64,000 nt of DNA from Cochliopodium minus (lineage: Eukaryota; Discosea; Himatismenida; Cochliopodiidae). Every line of letters starts with the position of its first letter. The stretch's first letter is position 1. A program made the position numbers and the translations under genes. Shown here piece by piece: positions 3,411-60,565 of this stretch. The notes under the pieces were generated by a model. The model saw only the letters and a list, made by a program, of their open reading frames with translations, had not been told where the DNA came from and did no database searches. The stretch spans positions 102,098 through 166,097 of the forward strand of contig JAMYWO010000074.1 in assembly GCA_024220525.1 (NCBI GenBank). The letters are read 5' to 3'.

Positions 3411-3958
3411 TTATCCTCTTTTGATATAGATGGATACAGGAGACAAAAATTCCTTCTTTTTATTTTCAAGTTCATTTATCTCTTCGTTGGTGGTGCAATC
3501 AGCCAAATCCCTTTCGAGCTTTTGGAGGTATCTATAAGGCCATTTTCTGTTGGTGGTTTCCTTGAATTTTTTGCACAACATGCTTTCACTGATCCCCAAT
3601 TTTGCAGCAGCGATTTTTTGTGGCAAGGATAAAAGATCCGTTATATCAATACGAACCAGATTTTCGACCTGGCTATTATTAAAAGAAAGTTCCACTCTTC
3701 TTTCTATCCTCTTTTTCTCATTGTTATTTATTGTTATTTCTATTTAGTTTAAAAAAGGAGGGATTAATTAAATTTGAAGATTTATACTCTTTTTGAAATC
3801 TTACTTTGTGTATATGACATTTCATTCAATTTTCTTTTATTCATGTTTATTTTTTGTGAATTATTATTCAGAAAGGATATGACCTGATATTTTTTTTGGA
3901 ACATCTCTTGCTCTTCCTTTTCGCTCATTGGATTCAAAAGTGATTGTATACTCATCAT
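3411..3958 (-). CDS. RWP-RK domain protein, copy 1
   Basis: Two exons, ATG at 3958, separated by a 65-nt GT-AG intron at 3740-3804, coding about 160 residues. Exon 1 starts with MMSIQSLLNPMSEKEEQ. Exon 2 holds an RWP-RK DNA-binding domain: helix LSLPQKIAAAKLGISESMLC, then NRKWPYRYLQKLERD, where KWPYR corresponds to the family's RWP-RK signature. The C-terminus is KKEFLSPVSIYIKRG. RWP-RK proteins are putative transcription factors known in plants, algae and some amoebae (NLP, RKD, MID families). It lacks PB1 or GAF regions, so it is a short RKD-like form. The second exon has no in-frame ATG, so the upstream exon is needed. Two further paralogues follow on the same strand and share both terminal motifs. 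Confidence 0.85.
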
Positions 3959-4961
3959 TTTTAAAAAATTTAAAAATTTGTGTTGTTTGGGAAAAGTTTG
4001 CTTGGTGGATGGAAAAATGATTTTTTTTATTATTTTTTTATTATTTTTATATTTTTAAATTTATATTTTCATACAGTATGATTTTAAAATTAGAATTTTG
4101 AAAAAAAAAAAATAAATTGTTTGTTTTACTTTTTTTAAAGTCTTTTTTTACACAAATTCAACCAAAATTTTCTTTCAATAAATTTATTGCTTAATTTTCT
4201 TAATCTTTGAGGATATTTTGCTTTTAATAAAATTTTGATCAAAAGAGGATATTTTTTTTTTATTTTCTTTAAACAGAGGGAATCAATTAAGAGAAAAAGA
4301 TAAAAAATTTAATATTTATTTTTAATCTTTATTGAAAAAAAATTAAAATTAAAATTATGCATTAATATTCGCGCAAATCATTCCAAAAACACCTCCTAAT
4401 TAATTAGTTCAAGTCCTTTTTGTTTTTTTATTTTTTTTTTTTTTAAAAGAGTGGAATAAAAAAACGGAAATTATTTTCTCTGAAATTTTTTCCCTCTTTG
4501 TAAATTTTTTATTGGACTCAAAATTTGAATGCTACAAATACTTGATCTAATGGGAATCATTTGAACATTTTATTAACTTAATTTTTCTCAAATTTCTTTG
4601 TATTGGATTTCTCCTCAAAAATATAAAAAAATTCATAATATTAAATTAAGAAAAGGTTATCATATTTTTGAATTTTTGTTGCAATCATTGTCAATCAAAT
4701 CCAAATTCGACTTTCATTTATCTTTTCAAAAAATATTTAATTGAATTTTGAAAGGGAGAAAATTATTAGAATCTGATATTGAAATCTCTATTTATAATTT
4801 TTTTTTATTATTTAAAATTAGAGAAATTGATTGGAAAATTCAAATTTAAAAAATTACAAATAAAATAAAATATTTTTTTTTTGGATTTTAATATATCAAG
4901 GTTATAATATTACAAAAAACAAAATTTGTGGTGTACACTTTCATATTTAAAGAATCAAAAA
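3959..4961. other. AT-rich spacer between RWP-RK paralogues
   Basis: About 1 kb of very AT-rich DNA with long A and T runs and no plausible exon. It presumably contains the promoter of copy 1 and the 3' flank of copy 2, but no specific element can be named. Confidence 0.6.
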
Positions 4962-5581
4962 TTAATTGTTTATCATGATATTTTGGTTTGAGTATTCGAT
5001 GGGATTTATTTTTTTGATGTAGATGGATACAGGAGCCAAAAATTCTTTTTTGAGTTGCAACATCTTTTCTAATTCTTGCTTATCTTTGCATAAAGAGATA
5101 TCCCTCTCCAATTTACTTAAGTATCTATAAGGCCATTTTCTATTTGTGATTTCCTTGAATTTTTTGCACAACATGCTTTCGCTGATTCCCAAAGAGGCCG
5201 CTGCTATTTTTTGTGGCAAAGTCAATAAATCAGTTATATCAGTCAAAACATCAATTTTCTTTTTATTGCAAGCATTTAACGACAATCCACTTTTTTGTTG
5301 AGACCTGTCTTGGAACCTGGCGTTCTCTGAGGAACGGATATGGCTCATTTTGATTTTCTTGGTTCCATTTTGGCCCTCTTCTATTTATTTTTTAAATATT
5401 GAAATAAATTAATAAATATCATAAAAATAAATAAATAAATTTTACCAAAATTTTCTCCTCTTTTTTTGTTCCAATTTTGTTGTGTTGATTCCTCACAATA
5501 ATTTTTATCATCGTACAATATTTGTTTCTCTTCTTCCTCGGTCATAGGATTCAACAAAAATTTTATGCTAATGATGCTCAT
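4962..5581 (-). CDS. RWP-RK domain protein, copy 2
   Basis: Two exons, ATG at 5581, joined in frame across a 65-nt intron at 5381-5445, about 185 residues. The N-terminus carries FLLNPMTEEEEKQIL, matching the LLNPM(S/T)E motif of its neighbours. The RWP-RK domain reads LTLPQKIAAASLGISESMLC then NRKWPYRYLSKLERD. The C-terminal FLAPVSIYIKK is again conserved, followed by a short Asn-rich tail. This copy has a longer basic linker between the N-terminal motif and the DNA-binding domain. Identical intron length and position relative to the coding sequence support tandem duplication. Confidence 0.87.
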
Positions 5582-6330
5582 TTTTTAATGAATTTTCAAA
5601 TTCTTATTTTCCAAAAAAAATAAAAAAAATTTCTTAATTATATTTTTTAAGAGAAAATAAATAATTTAATTTCAATTATTTTGTATGTTTTCATTCGTTC
5701 TACTAATTCACTTGTTTCAAAATAAGTTTTCACGCTCCGATTGGTTATCAACAATTTCGACATTTACAATTGAAAAATTCGAATGTATTTCACTATTTTT
5801 TATTTTATAATTAAATAAATAAATATAATAATTAAAAATAAAAATATTAAGAAAAGAGAAAAATTATATTCAGTTTCGCTTTCCCTCTAAAATTAAGAAA
5901 TTTTATTATTAACAAAATTTTGCTTAAAACTTGTTTGATTTTGTCTAATTAATTGTCAATTTATTTATTTATTTGATTTAGAAAAGGATAAATTTTGAAA
6001 TCAACTATTTTTTTTTTTTTTTCCAACAAAGATCCTTAAATTAAAATTCAAACAAAATAAAAAATTAATAAAGTTATTTGGAAATTGCGTATAATCTATT
6101 TTTTTTTTCAATATGAAGTTTCATTTAAGAAGGTAAGGTTGATTATGAAATTAAACTAAAAAATTTTTAATTTTTTTAAATAATTTAAAGTATAAACAAA
6201 AAAGATCATTTTTTTTTTTTTTTCTTTTGAAAAAGATGAAACTATAGAGCGGAGATCTAGGAGAAATATATGAAAAAAATATGAAATACTAGTCCCATTT
6301 CATATTTTGTTCTCATTAAAGAAGATTATC
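5582..6330. other. AT-rich spacer between RWP-RK paralogues
   Basis: About 750 bp of AT-rich spacer with poly-T runs near 6011 and 6211. No coding or RNA feature was found. Confidence 0.6.
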
Positions 6331-6882
6331 TTATTTTGAGGGCATTCTTTTGATGTAGATAGATACAGGAGCCAAAAATTCTTTTCTCTGTTTCTGCATC
6401 TTTTCTAGCTCTTGTTGATCATTACATAAAGCAATATCCCTTTCCAACTTTTGAAGGTATCTGTATGGCCATTTTCTATTGGTGATTTCTTTATATTTTC
6501 TACACAACATACTTTCTGTTATACCCAGATGTGCAGCTGCTATTTTTTGAGGCAATACCAACAGTGAAGTGATATCTGTCAATACATTGATCTTCTTGAT
6601 ATTGGGCAATATATTAATCTTAACATGGTTTCTCTCTTTTCTTTGAACTCTATGATTCTCTATTTTGAAGTTATATTTGATTGAATCAATATTTCCAAGT
6701 TCATTTTGAATATATGGATCTTTGGGATAGGATTTTAAAAAATATTTTGTAAAAAAAAAAACAAAAATAATTTTTCAAAAAAAAAAACCATTAATTTTTG
6801 AAAAATTGTTGTTAGATCTCTCATTGAATTCATTATTGAATTCTTCTTCAGACATTGGGTTTAGTAAATAGTGTATTTGCAT
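6331..6882 (-). CDS. RWP-RK domain protein, copy 3
   Basis: Two exons, ATG at 6882, joined across a 69-nt intron at 6720-6788. Its donor GTTTTT is weaker than in the sister genes, but the phase is correct (G|AT gives Asp). The N-terminus MQIHYLLNPMSEEEF repeats the shared motif. The DNA-binding domain reads LVLPQKIAAAHLGITESMLC and NRKWPYRYLQKLERD. The C-terminus is FLAPVSIYIKRMPSK. Length is about 160 residues. This is the outermost of three same-strand paralogues. Differences lie mostly in the linker, while the recognition region is nearly invariant, so DNA specificity is probably shared. Confidence 0.85.
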
Positions 6883-42272: not shown

Positions 42273-45127
42273 ATGGAAACAAAGGATAGGAGTCTCACCA
42301 ACATTGGAAATTTAAATACCTTCAAAGATATTTTGAATGAAAATGATCCCCAAATCATGGAGAAGAAGAAAATAGGATTGAGAGGGTAAAGAATAAGCAT
42401 ATGATCTTAATTTAAAAATATTTTATTATTTGGGACTAATAAATAATTTTTAGGATTGTATCCAAAAAGAAAAAGAGATTCAATAATGAAAAATATGATC
42501 TTGATCTTGCATGTAAACTTCAAAAATATAAATCATAAAAAAATAATTTTTTAAATAAATACCAACATATAAACCTTTATCCATGAAGATATCACAGATA
42601 GAATTATTGCGATGGTAATGAGGATTAAAATTTAATTAATTTTTCCAATTTATCCTAAATTATTTTGATAAAAAAAAAGGGATTTCCATCAAAGAAGATT
42701 GAAGGGATTTATAGAAATCCAATGAAGCAAGTTCAAAATTTCATGGAGGAATATCATGAAGATAATTATAAAGTAAAGAGGAAGTTTTTGAAAAATATAA
42801 ATATAATAAATAATTAATAATATAAAAAAAAAATCAATTTAAATTATTAATTCCTTTATTAAATTAGATATACAATCTTTGTTCTGAAAGAACTTATGAT
42901 CATTCAAAATTTAAAAATAGAGTATCACACTATCCATTCGACGATCACAAGTAAACTTTTTTTTGAAAATCATTATTTGCTCAACTTATTGTCAAAACAA
43001 TTGTTTTTTTAAAGTCCTCCTAAATTTGAATTGTTCAAATCCATTTTTGAAGATATAGACAAGCATTTTGAAACAGATGAGAAAAGCATTGTGGCAATAC
43101 ATTGGTAACTTTCTTTTTCTACTTTTTTTTTTTACTCTTTTTAACTAAATCTTTAATCAATAGCAAAGTAATATACTTCATTTAAAAAAAAACCCCCTTT
43201 CTAAAATTATTTTTAAAAAGGCAGGAAAAGGTATGTTTCAAAACTTATAATAGATTATAACTCATTTTTAATTCACACTTTTTTTTTATTTAGGGAGAAC
43301 AGGTACAGTGATAGCGGGATACTTTTTATATAGATATAAATCCATGGGTGTTTCAGCTCAAGAATCTCTTGATTTCTTTTCAGAAAGGAGAACACAAGAT
43401 GGAAAAGGAGTTGTAAACTTTTTTTAAAAAATAAAAATAATTTCAAAAGTTAACTTTTCATTTTATTTTTTTTAAAAAAAAAAGACTATAAAGAGCCAAA
43501 AGAGATATGTATTTTACTTAGAAAAAATTTTGGAAATGCATGGCACCATTCCTAAAGTAATTTCCTCACCTAGAATCCTCAAAAAAATATCAATTTGCGG
43601 AACAATGGGATACGTCGCCAAAAAGGAAGAGAGTTTTCCTTCCTTTGATATCATTTGCCCTTACTATGATTTGAAGTTTGAATCCAAGAAAGAAACTGTT
43701 CACAATCTGAATAATGCAGATGACTACAATATTCTCACTTTCACCCTTGATTTGGAAGTAAACAAGGATATCATTTTTCAGTTTTATTACGATAAAAAAA
43801 GGACAGAAAAAATGTGCAGGTAAAAAATTTTCAATTAAAATTTTAAATTTTTTTTTCAAATTTTGTATTTATTTATTCCTTTGCATAAAAAAACTTCCTT
43901 GTATTTATTTTTTTTATTTTCATTTTTTTTTTTAACAGTTTCTGGCTTAACAGTTTCTTCGTTGGAGCAACTGAATCATTGGGATTAGAAGATCTAGATG
44001 GAGTTAAAAAAACTATGAACAAGTTCCCCAAAAATTTCAAAATAATGGTTTATTTCAAGGAATCATCGCAAGAACAAAAATTAGAAATGTCCTCTCCTAA
44101 TCCCACAAAAGAAGGAAATAACAATAACGGAGGAAGTAAACCTATCAACATTAACAATTCCAACAGTTCTCCTCTCAACAACCGTTTGAAGAGCTCTTCT
44201 CCTCTTTCACCTCCATCCAAGACAAGTTACATGAATAGCGGAAATATTTCTGGCACTTCTCCTCTTTCACCTCAATCCAAAACAAGTTACATGAGAAATC
44301 CAAATTGTAGATTAGCTTTTTTTTTTGATTTCTTATTCTCTTAATTATTTTTTCTTACTTTTTTGTAGCTCCAACGGAGAATGAAGTGATGGAAAGAGAA
44401 TCTAAATTCAGTCCAACTGTAACTTCGATGATTTGTCATTCTTGCAATACTCCAGTAAGTTCAAATGCAGTCAAAGCGAATAATTCCTACTTCCATAAAA
44501 CTTGTTTCTTGTGTTCAGTTTGCAATGTAACAGCTTTTTTTTATTTCAGATAAAATATTTAGAATAAATTAATTTTTTTTTATTCATAAGATGTACATGA
44601 AATCTGCTTATTTTGTTAAAGGAAAGCTTTTCTGTGAAGAACATTCCCCAAACAATGTAACATGTAACAAATGTGGCAAAAAGATCATCAAAGATTATTT
44701 CACCTTCCAAGGTGAAAAGATCCACGTGGACTGCCTCAAATGCCACAAGTGCACAACCATCCTTGACCCCAAAAATTTTTACACCGTGCTAGAACAACCA
44801 TTTTGTGAGAAATGCAGTCTAAACGTTGATGAAGAAGAACTCAAGATGGAAATAAAAAAAGAAAAACTTCTTAAGAGTTCTTCTCGTGAGAGTGTCAGTC
44901 CTAATCTTTCTCGTGTTACTTCTAATAAACCTAACTTCAATCATTTACCTCGTGCTTTTTCTCTTTACAATTACACTGCTAAGAACAAAGACGAGCTTTC
45001 TTTTAAGAAGGGTGATGTTATTGTTGTTGTCAAGGATTCTGTTGATAAGGGATGGAAAGTTGGTTTTTTGGAAAGTGATCCAAAGGCTCTTATGGGAAAT
45101 TTCCCTTCCAATTATGTTAAATATTAA
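42273..45127 (+). CDS. PTEN phosphatase fused to two LIM domains and SH3
   Basis: Exons from ATG 42273 give a PTEN catalytic domain: IVSKKKKRF, DLDLA|YITDRIIAMGFP, IYNLCSERTYD, YPFDDHNPP, and the signature HCKAGKGRTGT. This is followed by a C2 domain (FYYDKKRTEKMC, FWLNSFFVG). A Ser/Asn/Pro-rich linker leads to LIM1 (CHSC, HKTC, CSVC, FCEEH), LIM2 (CNKC, HVDC, CHKC, FCEKC) and a C-terminal SH3 domain (AFSLYNYTAKNKDELSF, GNFPSNYVKY). All joins are in phase. The catalytic Cys codon is split, with a 4-nt exon at 43164-43167 and a 10-nt exon at 43221-43230. PTEN dephosphorylates PI(3,4,5)P3 at the 3 position. LIM and SH3 parts should tether it to the actin cytoskeleton (inference). Confidence 0.9.
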
Positions 45128-54000: not shown

Positions 54001-57000
54001 AAACAAAGATCAGGTTTAATTTTATTCATTTAAAAATCAAAATAAATAATAATTTTTCTTTAGAAAATAAAATGTGTTTTTAAAAATGGGAAGAAATTCG
54101 GTAAAGGAATATTGAAAGAAAATGGAACAGAATATGCAATAGAATTTGACATAAATGGAAAAGAAATTTATGAAAAGAGAATAAGGACATACAATGCCAC
54201 AAGATTAATGTTTGGTAAGTAAAAAAAAAGTTTCTCTTTTTGAAATTCTTCATTTATTTTTAATTTCAGTTGGATGCAAGAATGTTGGAAAAACATGCCT
54301 CAGAATTAGATTAATGGGCAGTGAAAAAGACAATCTTAAAGCTTATAAACAAGTTCAAACAGAAAAAAAAGATGAGGAAATAACACATGGTGTTGAGATT
54401 TTTCATTGGGAAGAAGGTGATTCTCTTTACTCTGTTTGGGATTTTGCTGGTCATGAAGAATACCATGTAAAACTTTATCAAAAAAAAAAAAATTCTTTTC
54501 AATTAAAAAAACATTTCTTTGATATGAAAGGTTGCACACTCCTTTTTCTTCAGCTCTGGTTGTGTATATATTCTGGTGTTCGATTGTTCAATTCAAATTG
54601 AGGAATTAGTGAGTAACAAAAAAAAATTTATAAAAGTTTTTATTTACATAAAATTTTTAAATTTTTAGCTAAAAATAAACTTTTGTATTGGTTTCATTTC
54701 CTTCAAACTCAAATTGGTGACGATTCTCCTATCATTCTTGTTGGATCTAAATTAGATTTGTTGGAAAAAAAGATACAAACATCCATTTTCAGAGATAAAA
54801 ACAAAAATATTCTAAATGAAAAACTGAGTTTAATCAATGAAGGTAAACCAAAAAAAAAGATTTCTCTTTAATAATTTTAAAAAACTTTGTTGAAACGAAG
54901 AAATTACAAAGACAATAGAACAAAATGATATCAAACTAAAGTTTCTTACTTTTCATTCAAATATATTGAACGAAAAACCTTTTTATTTCACTTCTATGAG
55001 ATCTAGGGACTATGACACAAAACTTTCTGGGTTGGATACTCTTGTAAAGACATTAAAATCAGAATATGAAAATCTTAAAAATGGAGTGGTAGCAAATTTG
55101 AAACATAAAATAGGTTTTATCTTTTTTTTTTTTTTTTTTCTGAAGATAAATTTTTTTTTTTATTCGATTAGTTTATGAGCAAATCCAAAAAATAGTTAAA
55201 GAAAATACAAATAAGGATAACACTTCAAATCTCATGGACAACGAGAAGATTTTCATAGAAGTTTCTTTCCTCAAAAAGGTTTTGCTTGAATACAAGAAAG
55301 AAGAATCTCTCGAGGCAGCAAAAAACATCGAAAAAGTGCTTGTAGATCTCCACAAACTTGGTCTAATCGTCTATTTAAATAACAATAACCTAAAAGATCT
55401 GATAGTTACAAATCCTAAATGGTTCAACAATGTATTCAAAAAGATATTAGGTAGATTTTGTTTTAATTATCTTTTGTTTTAATTATTTTTTTTGTATTTT
55501 TTTATTTTTTTTTCAATTTTTTTATGGTAGATTTTGGTAAAATGAGAATTGCAAATATTCTTGAACTTATCCAGAAAAACATCGAAGAGATGATCGAAGA
55601 AAAGGAAATGAACTTTCTGAGTTCGAGCATAAACAGCAAGACTCTAATTGAAGATGCTCTTATTTGGCTGAAAGCAAAGGCAAATTTAAAACTTTCCATC
55701 AAAGATATTTGGGAAAATGAATCTGAAAAGAAAAAATCTGTTTTGGAAAAAATTAGCTTTCACAAATTATTGAAGAAACTTGACAAAATTCAACAGAAAA
55801 TCCATGAGGAAGGGAATGACAAAGCCATAGAATCTGTCAAGAAAACCTTCAACTTACCTTTGTATTATGATCTTTGCCAGATGTTCCACAGTATAAACGA
55901 ACAAGATCTGATTGTGTTGGTGAAACAAATGATCGGTTCTCCAAAATTTTATTTCACAGAAGAAGACATGAAAGGTTTTTTATTTTAAATATTTCTTTTT
56001 TTTAATTTTTTTTTTATAATAAATTTTTTTTTTTTTTTAATTGTTTTTTTGATTATTTTTATTTTTCATTCATTTTTTTTTTTAAAAAGCTTATTTAGAA
56101 AAAATGAATTTCACCAAAAAAATCTTGAGTAATTTTGACTTAATTTTCCCTAAAAAGAGAATTCAATTGGGAGATGTTAACAAGAATGATCTTCCCAAAC
56201 AAAGCTACAGTGTTCCTTTCTTGTTTCCAATCAACAAGCCAAAACACATCTATCTCCAAGGAAAAAAGAGATTAGGAGAAATAAACAGGAGTAAAGAGTG
56301 GAAAATAAATTACTACTTCAATTTCAAACCATCCTCAATGTGGAAAATTTTGTTCTTGAGGTTCAAAAAAAAAATTATATCATTTCATTCATAGATGTTC
56401 AAAATTTTACAACAATTCAAATTTTTTTAGCAATTAATTTATATCCGCTAACAAAATTGTAATTTTGGATTTAATATTATTATTTTTATATTTTATATTA
56501 AAAATTTTATGTGTTTTATTTTTATTTTTTAATTTATTTTTATTATTTAAAATTAAATTTTTTTATTGTTTATTTTAATTATTTTTTTTTGATTTTTTAG
56601 AATTAGGAAAGCTTGTTTAGGGAACAACGAGAAATGTATAATTATTGATGAAATATATTGGATTGATGGATTTGTGTTTTCTTTTTCGGAAATTGATGAA
56701 AATCTGTCAATTGTACAAATGGAAACATTCGAGCTTGACAAAAATAAGCCATCAAGAAATGTAACCAAAAATGTTTAAAAATAAATTATTTTTGTTAATA
56801 AAAATTATGATTTTTTTTTATTTTTTTATTTTTATTATTTTTTTTTATTTTTCTTTTTTATTTTTATATTTTTAATTTTTATTTTAAATATAATTCAATT
56901 TTTTTCTTAGAGAAGCAGTGTCAATGAATCAGAAAATAGATCTTTCAAACATATCATGCAAATAAAAATTAAAACAGATTATGACATCCACTTCCTTTTC

Positions 57001-58690
57001 AATTCAATACACTTGTCGATGAAAGAGTTTGTATCCAACTGGCTAGTTTCTTCTTTGTCAAACGAAATCCACTTTGAAGTGATCAAAAGATCTATCAAAA
57101 CAGAACAAGAAACTTCCGTCCCTCTTAACACTTTTATCGCAAGTGACTACAACAACCAAGAAAGTGAACAATTTTTTATTTTTTTTATTTAAAAATTTGT
57201 TATTTTGATATTTTTTTTATTTTTTATTTTTTATTTTTTATCATTTGTTATTTATCATTTATTATTTTTAAGTTTTTAATTTTAAAGTTTTTATTTAAAT
57301 TTTTATTTTATTTTTTATTAATTTTTTATTTTTTATTTTTTATTTTATTTTTTATTTTTAAATTATTAATATTTTTTATTACAAAATAGTCATTTGCTCT
57401 TATTGTGGAAGTTCTTTTATTTTTGACAAACTCAAAACTAAAAATTGCGTGAATTGTACATCTGAGAATTTCTTGATCGAAAACAAATTTGGTAACATTT
57501 AGATATTCAATAAAGTTTCAATTAACGTCAAATAAAAAAAATTCCTTTAAATTTAAAAAATAGCTTTGTTGGGTTTGGTAGAACAAGGAGGTTTTGGAAG
57601 AGTTTATAAAGCGTAAATGCAATCGAATCTTTATTTTAAAAATTAATTTAATTTTTTTTAAAAAAACAATACATAACGAAATTTTTGATTTAAAAGGTTA
57701 TATCTTGAAACAAATACGATAGTTGCCATAAAGGAAAGAATAAGCGAAAAAGAAGAATACATCAAAGCATGGAAAAAGGAAGCAGAATCATTAAAACTCA
57801 TAGAAGAATTACTACCAAACTTGATAACTTACAAGCTTATTTGTGTTTTGGACGATACACTCAGAAAACTCGAACAAAAATATTTGGTGATAGAATGGAT
57901 AGAGGGAGGAAGTTTACATCATTTGTGCAAAAATTACTCCAAATTCAAAATTTTCAATAACGAAAAAGATTTTTTGAGGATGACTTTCATGATTATGGAT
58001 CAGCTTCTTCAGTTGCACCAATTTAATCTTATTCACAGAGATATCAAGCCAGAAAACATTATGTTTTTTAAACATAACAACCTTTATTTTTTTTGTTTGA
58101 TAGATTTCGCGAGCTGTTTCACTCTTGGAAGTTTACAAGAAAAGGTTCGTTGTTTTTCAGAGAAATTCAGCCCACCCGAACAAAACTCTGACAGAGAAAC
58201 TTCCAAAAGTGATGTTTATTCTCTCTCTATTTCCCTTTCTAATGTATTAAACTCTATTAAAGTGGAGGTTGATGAAGATTTTCTTTCTATTTTAAATAAC
58301 ATGAAAGAAAAAGAAATTGATAAAAGGCCAACTCTTCAAAATTGCATTCATTATTTAACTTTATATTGCCAAAAAAAGTTTGGAGAGATTTCTTTTTTGA
58401 CACAAAATTATCCTCCTTCTCTTCCCATCTTCACTAAAAACCTTGATGCTTTAAAAAGTAAATTTATTTTTAATTCACCAATTAAATCTGACCATGTAAC
58501 ATCCAATGACCAAAACAATCACATTCCTGACAATCTTAACATCGTTGAAAAAGATAAATTAATTTTGGAAAAAGAAAAAACTATTACTAAACTTGAAGAG
58601 AAAAACTTGTTTCTTGAAAATAAGCTCCTTGAAAGTAATCAAAAGATCGAGATTTTGCTCCTTGAAATCGAAAAATTAAAAAATAAATAA
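51089..58690 (+). CDS. RCC1-MORN-Roc-COR-kinase (Roco family) protein
   Basis: More than 20 exons can be chained. Exons from 51089 to about 52550 encode RCC1 blades (GKNEFGELGLGH, GNNEHGQLGTG, SNKYGQLGLP, HSIVLF). Next come MORN-like repeats (FKGTFEKGKPKEGEKY, NGTEWTGEGKIIW, GKPHGEGSKIE). The Roc GTPase has its P-loop in GCKNVGKTC, switch VWDFAGHEEYH|VAHSFFFSSG, and G4-like VGSKLDL. A COR region (about 55170-57180) follows, including NPKWFNNVFKKIL. A CxxC..CxxC ribbon (ICSYCGSS, CVNC) precedes a kinase: EQGGFGRVYKA, VAIKER, HRDIKPENIMF, LIDFASCF, SPPEQ. The end is a coiled coil (LILEKEKTITKLEEKN). Roco proteins couple GTP-dependent dimerisation to kinase output. The DFG Gly is replaced by Ala. 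Confidence 0.85.
56394..56473. repeat. ~80-bp terminal-inverted-repeat element, copy 2
   Basis: Second copy of the element at 47704-47783, in an intron of the Roco gene. It shares GATGTTCAAAATTTTA at the left, TATCCGCTAACAA inside and TGTAATTTTGGA at the right. Middle sequence differs in several places, so the copies are not recent. Confidence 0.7.
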
Positions 58691-60083: not shown

Positions 60084-60565
60084 TTCAATAACGAAAAAAG
60101 ATTTTTTGAGGATGACTTTCATGATTATGGATCAGCTTCTTCAGTTGAACCAATTTAATCATATTCACAGAGATATCAAGCCAGAAAACATTATGTTTTT
60201 TAAACAACCTTTATTTTTTTTGTTTGGTAAATTTCGCGAGCTGTTTCACTCTTGGAAGTTTACAAGAAAAGGTTCGTTGTTTTTCAGAGAAATTCAGCCC
60301 ACCCGAACAAAACTCTGACAGAGAAACTTCCAAAAGTATCTTTGAAAAAGATAAATTAATTTTGGAAAAAGAAAAAACTATTACTAAACTTGAAGAGAAA
60401 AACTTGTTTCTTGAAAATAAGCTCCTTGAAAGTAATCAAAAGATCGAGATTTTGCTTCTTGAAATGGAAAGATTAAAAATAAATAAAAAAAGTAAAAAAA
60501 ATCGATTTTGAATCTTGGAATATTCTATTTATTTATACTGATCATAAATGAAAATAAGAACAGGC
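60084..60565 (+). pseudogene. truncated duplicate of the Roco kinase 3' end and TFB5 start
   Basis: Nearly identical to 57952-58758 but damaged. An extra A in the run after AACGA shifts the frame. AATAACAACC is reduced near MFFK, and GATAGATTT has become GGTAAATTT. An internal deletion removes the kinase C-lobe (from after ETSKS to the coiled coil). The coiled coil LILEKEKTITKLEEKN is retained. Beyond the stop, the duplicate continues through the 3' flank into the first 18 bases of the TFB5 gene (ATGAAAATAAGAACAGG), then diverges. No functional kinase is possible. Confidence 0.9.

Follow-up and report, generated by a model that had tools for sequence, protein, structure and literature searches.

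Very small exons have been described in both plants and animals. In Arabidopsis a 1-nt exon has been reported in APC11, and its flanking introns have been proposed to be removed in turn (PMC4674806). In plants, 45 conserved microexon clusters of 1-15 nt are described, including a 4-nt phase-2 exon in RECQ3 (PMC8831610). In C. elegans, smaller flanking introns free microexons from dependence on PRP-40 (PMC8378409).

The locus considered here lies in a window of 64,000 nucleotides, the whole stretch of DNA that was analysed. This is bases 102098-166097 of contig C74, in an assembly of 44.65 Mb and 598 contigs, and its G+C content ranges from 20.5 to 29.0% in 4-kb steps. The window holds a PTEN-type gene (also called C74 below) on the forward strand at 42273-45127, in which 13 exons and 12 GT-AG introns give a single open frame of 664 aa. 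The order of domains is phosphatase, C2, LIM domains and SH3. Exons 1, 12 and 13 and the end of exon 11 were placed by eye, and the other exons come from spliced alignment. The features, all on the forward strand (+), are as follows.

42273..42385 (+): exon 1, with the ATG at 42273; by eye, outside the range of the aligner; frame open after joining
42454..42512 (+): exon 2, start of the phosphatase domain; spliced alignment to human PTEN (aligned from 42455), joined frame
42589..42614 (+): exon 3, 26 nt; spliced alignment, joined frame
42680..42772 (+): exon 4; spliced alignment, joined frame
42868..42950 (+): exon 5; spliced alignment, joined frame
43015..43104 (+): exon 6, ending CAT TG (His and the first two bases of the Cys codon); sequence, spliced alignment, joined frame
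43105..43163 (+): intron of 59 nt, phase 2, GTAACT...AATAG; position common to C69 only; spliced alignment
43164..43167 (+): exon 7, CAAA, the 4-nt microexon (third base of the Cys codon, then the Lys codon); alignment, shuffles, C69 homologue
43168..43220 (+): intron of 53 nt, phase 0, GTAATA...AAAAAG; position common to C69, C299 and C38; spliced alignment
43221..43230 (+): exon 8, the 10-nt microexon GCAGGAAAAG (Ala-Gly-Lys and the first base of Gly); spliced alignment
43231..43293 (+): intron of 63 nt, phase 1, GTATGT...TTTAG; spliced alignment
43294..43412 (+): exon 9, GRTGT...GKGV; spliced alignment, joined frame
43485..43819 (+): exon 10, end of the phosphatase and start of the C2 domain; spliced alignment, joined frame
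43939..44306 (+): exon 11, end of the C2 domain and linker; start by spliced alignment, end by eye; open frame
44369..44526 (+): exon 12, start of the LIM region; by eye, Pfam LIM on the joined protein, open frame
44591..45127 (+): exon 13, remaining LIM region, SH3 and stop; sequence, Pfam, joined frame

Judged by its sequence, the gene is a PTEN relative and a predicted phosphatase. The identification as PTEN in the preliminary description is borne out by the top PDB matches of the protein, which are human PTEN entries (7jvx and 1d5r; E about 1e-64; query residues 9-296 and 11-322). PTEN_C2 (PF10409) scores 46.5 bits over a cut-off of 27.1, and LIM (two stretches, best 456-504) and SH3 exceed their Pfam cut-offs, as do the PTP-SAK, Tc-R-P and Y_phosphatase models. 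DSPc is marginally below its own (33.4 vs 33.5). The P-loop signature of the spliced gene, HCKAGKGR, is that of human PTEN.

Elsewhere in the window, three adjacent open frames on the minus strand (3411-6774) match RWP-RK with 28.5, 27.0 and 23.2 bits, all below the Pfam cut-off of 29.3; they are apparently a tandem family. An open frame at 54209-54601 (+) matches the Roc GTPase domain (PF08477, 29.9 bits, cut-off 27). After a protein kinase gene at 57689-58690 comes, at 60149-60511, a shorter sequence that nearly copies part of the gene, with stretches near-identical to it and no Pfam match.

The sequence argues, with a probability of about 0.9, that CAAA is a genuine and probably constitutive spliceosomal 4-nt microexon of this PTEN-type phosphatase gene. 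It is an internal exon between two GT-AG introns that match the genome consensus, and both the frame and the conserved protein require it. The DNA structure, its fit to the splice consensus of the genome, its coding necessity and the presence of the same structure in a distant paralogue are all established.

One line of evidence is alignment. Human PTEN was compared with 2 kb of the window by a custom program for local alignment of protein to DNA, in which GT-AG introns of all three phases are permitted, the exon positions not being supplied. Its optimum (score 498) has exons of 90, 4, 10 and 119 nt, at the very coordinates proposed in the preliminary description. The boundaries given there (43104, 43164-43167, 43221-43230 and 43294) are all correct on the sequence, the spliced alignment and the joined frame; the three pairs of intron ends were also read correctly as GTAACT...AATAG, GTAATA...AAAAAG and GTATGT...TTTAG. 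The catalytic Cys codon is indeed split by an intron, TG/C (a slash marks a splice boundary), as both sequence and alignment confirm. For a shuffle test the region was reduced to 398 bases, and the interior of the intron pair was given 2000 dinucleotide shuffles. The true alignment scored 167.0 and the shuffles 131.7 on average and 163.25 at most, so none of the 2000 equalled it; AG/CAA[AG]/GT arose at a usable place in none of them. The string AGCAARGTAA occurs once on the two strands of the 64-kb window, at 43162. This is weak evidence alone, because 17 of 100 shuffles have at least one copy (mean 0.21).

The splice sites were ranked, leaving one out, against 107 introns selected by the identity filter alone (C282 left out), the tested introns being among the 107. 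The 59-nt intron has its donor at the 54th percentile and its acceptor at the 52nd, and the 53-nt intron at the 20th and 96th. The microexon's own donor (AAA/GTAATA, the one at the 20th percentile) is weakish, and the sites around the 4-nt exon all fall inside the range of the 107.

The decisive line of evidence is a second gene with the same structure. In C69 (locus L014, minus strand) the aligner optimum reads CATTG, a 65-nt intron, CAAG, a 67-nt intron and GCAGGAAAAGG, with the 4-nt exon at the same place and in the same phases (2 and 0) as in C74. Its true score is 193.5 and none of 2000 shuffles is at or above that, the best being 191.75; AG/CAAR/GT appeared in place in 2 of the 2000. In both genes the top shuffle scores come near the true ones (163.25 vs 167.0 and 191.75 vs 193.5), and this counts against the microexon. 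The four splice sites around the C69 exon stand at the 34th to 92nd percentile of the same 107 introns, again leaving one out. The phosphatase domains of the two proteins are 47% identical, and the intron pairs align no better than shuffled sequence (480/500 and 246/500 shuffles at or above the true score); the shared exon is therefore no recent copy. Recent gene conversion between C74 and C69 is rejected for the same reason, the introns not aligning. Since a distant sister gene has the same 4-nt exon, the exon in C74 is very probably real.

A genome search with CAYTGGTN{35,65}AGCAARGT gave 11 matches (4 on the forward and 7 on the reverse strand, against 0 and 2 for the reversed pattern as control). 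A GTAA donor is present in two of them alone, C74 and C69, each of which also has a TAG acceptor. In collections that hold no relatives of the source genome, seven stretches of viral contigs matched a pattern, with no relative by tblastn, and among genome contigs there were 69 matches, again with no relative. Further support for the protein reading of C74 comes from C50, a gene 74% identical to it that groups as its sister in the tree with support 99/97; in C50, HCKAGKGRT is uninterrupted within one exon. In human PTEN, too, the signature lies within a single exon.

It had been claimed that HCKAGKGRTG can be read only with the 4-nt and 10-nt exons, and this stands: of seven alternative outcomes, six are predicted to reach a stop (leaving out either microexon or both, and retaining any one of the three introns) and one breaks the signature. 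Skipping the 4-nt exon, for example, would give HWQEKGEQVQ and then a stop. What if the microexon is real and its use is under regulation, such that skipping yields a truncated, inactive PTEN, in other words an off switch? The premature stop in six of the seven outcomes would suit this idea. However, such stops are expected of any exon with a length not divisible by three, and the C74 and C69 introns have no similarity above that of shuffled sequence. Regulated inclusion is unlikely.

The seventh outcome deserves a closer look. If the first intron of the pair were spliced to the AG 5 nt downstream, after 43168, the exon would be 43169-43230 and 16 residues, NILHLKKNPLSKIIFK, would enter the P loop with the Cys and the frame kept. 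The microexon would then be illusory, or this would be a second, inactive isoform. It is the only in-frame outcome of the seven, and it becomes the top alignment once the microexon acceptor is disabled. Nevertheless, it scores 130.5 against 167.0, 36.5 points below the microexon alignment, and it would break a motif that human PTEN and, within its exon, C50 have in identical form. Moreover, the corresponding acceptor in C69 leads to CAT TGG TAA, a stop. This alternative is thus very unlikely. That the gene, seen in a single assembly, is a pseudogene or mis-assembled, with the 4-nt match due to chance, is scarcely credible, given that 13 exons form one open 664-aa frame, that LIM, PTEN_C2 and SH3 exceed their Pfam cut-offs and that the same 4-nt exon is present again in C69.

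Granted a genuine microexon in C74, how old is the intron pair? An initial protein search found 29 matches, spread over the window contig and ten further contigs. Spliced alignment at all ten further places shows nine to be PTEN-like and one (L018, on C180) not to be; the latter scored only 98.5 and enters neither the tree nor the intron table nor the survey. The PTEN-family set thus has ten members, the window gene and nine others (L009-L017), with C282 (L017) included in the tree, the exon survey and the intron table. A search with PF22785 gave 21 matches, 5 at places already covered and 16 outside the modelled set. The intron pair is absent in eight of the ten genes, including C50, the nearest relative of C74. 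The phase-2 intron in the Cys codon occurs in two of the ten, and the phase-0 intron after HCK in four (C74, C69, C299 and C38). C299 and C38 have only this downstream intron and none in the Cys codon, and C528 has its Cys codon split at phase 1. In C38 (L016, 1893-1952) the intron after HCK apparently begins with GC (AAG/GCAAAA) instead of GT.

The tree leaves C69, C299, C38 and human PTEN without resolution against C74 plus C50. With the pair absent in eight of ten genes, common descent of the Cys-codon intron is therefore unproven. Either two separate gains or several losses may account for its distribution. The phase-0 intron after HCK would most simply be ancestral to the group.

In human PTEN numbering, the 53 introns of the ten genes occupy 41 positions, and residues 123-132 hold 14 of the 53 introns and 9 of the 41 positions. 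Each of the ten (L009-L017 and window 43015-43412) has one or more introns inside HCKAGKGRTG, and together they use 9 distinct positions there. If placement were uniform, the scan probability of such clustering of the 41 positions would be 0.019 with the choice of scan window allowed for, a post hoc figure from genes that are not independent. HCKAGKGRTG is possibly an intron hot spot in PTEN-family genes. A bolder proposal is that the Cys-codon intron pair predates the C74/C69 split and has been kept as a cell-controlled PTEN off switch acting through failed splicing, the active-site loops of phosphatases and myosins of this genome being hot spots for intron pairs and microexons. This is unlikely.

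Are tiny exons common in this genome? The survey covered 155 internal exons in 15 myosin places, the PTEN gene of the window, the nine other PTEN-like genes and a portion of PLRG1. The 15 myosin places were aligned with the long open frames of three other, little-interrupted myosins (901, 903 and 392 aa); myosins were preferred over polymerase, and the loci for PRP8 (match inside a 1653-aa open frame) and RNA-polymerase subunits were excluded. An exon passed the filter if both its introns were at least 45 nt and at least 3 of 8 residues were identical on each side, as was so for 57 of the 155. The genes sampled are rich in small exons: twelve of the 57 are of 27 nt or less, a rate that is not genome-wide because the surveyed genes were chosen as intron-rich. 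Four are of 15 nt or less, namely both 4-nt exons, that of 10 nt and one of 13 nt in a myosin. Another 16 exons of 30 nt or less failed the filter, including one of 17 nt in C299 and several, 3-8 nt long, that are mostly untrustworthy. The aligned part of PLRG1, in the window, has ordinary exons (310, 204 and 266 nt). The 107 introns have a median length of 68 nt (34-471), with AG/GTAAA the commonest donor bases. Two small exons lie at the myosin P loop: a 13-nt exon coding GESG (L043, C182, 763-775 of the reverse complement) and a 22-nt exon ending GE ahead of SGAGKT (L046, C55, 734-755).

With introns so short and tiny exons so many, it is probably the intron rather than the exon that is recognised. 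The 4-nt exon exists because two introns lie only four bases apart in the codons of the catalytic Cys and of the Lys that follows. Its flanking introns are short (59 and 53 nt in C74, 65 and 67 nt in C69), and the splicing machinery can therefore recognise introns instead of exons, so that each intron, not the exon, would be the unit recognised. The two introns need not be bound simultaneously; most likely they are removed sequentially, and each removal would leave a longer exon beside the remaining intron. Under intron definition a 4-nt exon would then be no obstacle, provided that both introns are removed in turn. We infer that splicing of the 4-nt exon occurs, and that it is constitutive and stepwise. 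Two FF-domain matches occur in the genome, both at a single place on C128, in keeping with a putative PRP40-like protein.

There are practical consequences. Gene finders that bar such tiny exons would lose the active site of C74 and call the gene broken. The combination of short introns, many tiny exons and one such exon common to divergent paralogues offers a natural test of whether exon size has any floor under intron definition. Among the matches listed from the open-access literature (titles and the starts of abstracts), no comparable PTEN or catalytic-cysteine microexon was found.

How does the C74 exon compare with known cases? It had been placed near the lower limit of what spliceosomes are known to define, but that limit is not at 4 nt: Arabidopsis APC11 reportedly has a 1-nt exon (PMC4674806), and plant RECQ3 has a 4-nt one (PMC8831610). 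Four nucleotides is no size record, since plants have both 1-nt and conserved 4-nt exons. Like the ultra-short microexons of plants, it is a tiny internal coding exon between two introns, its loss disturbs coding, and some gene copies keep it while others hold the bases within a larger exon. The plant exons are supported by RNA data and the C74 and C69 exon by DNA sequence; in contrast to them, the C74 exon sits in a phosphatase active-site codon and adjoins a second microexon of 10 nt. Animal neuronal microexons (27 nt or less) resemble it in that their shortness challenges the splicing machinery (PMC8378409). However, the PRP-40-dependent ones are alternatively spliced and flanked by introns of conventional size, whereas the introns here are 53-67 nt and use of the exon is probably constitutive. 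As to the protein, C74 is like human PTEN in its phosphatase domain (54% identical), its identical HCKAGKGRTG and its matching C2 domain, and unlike it in having C-terminal LIM and SH3 domains. What is unusual in C74 is the position of the exon at the catalytic Cys and Lys codons, the adjoining 10-nt exon and the occurrence in two divergent paralogues of one genome.
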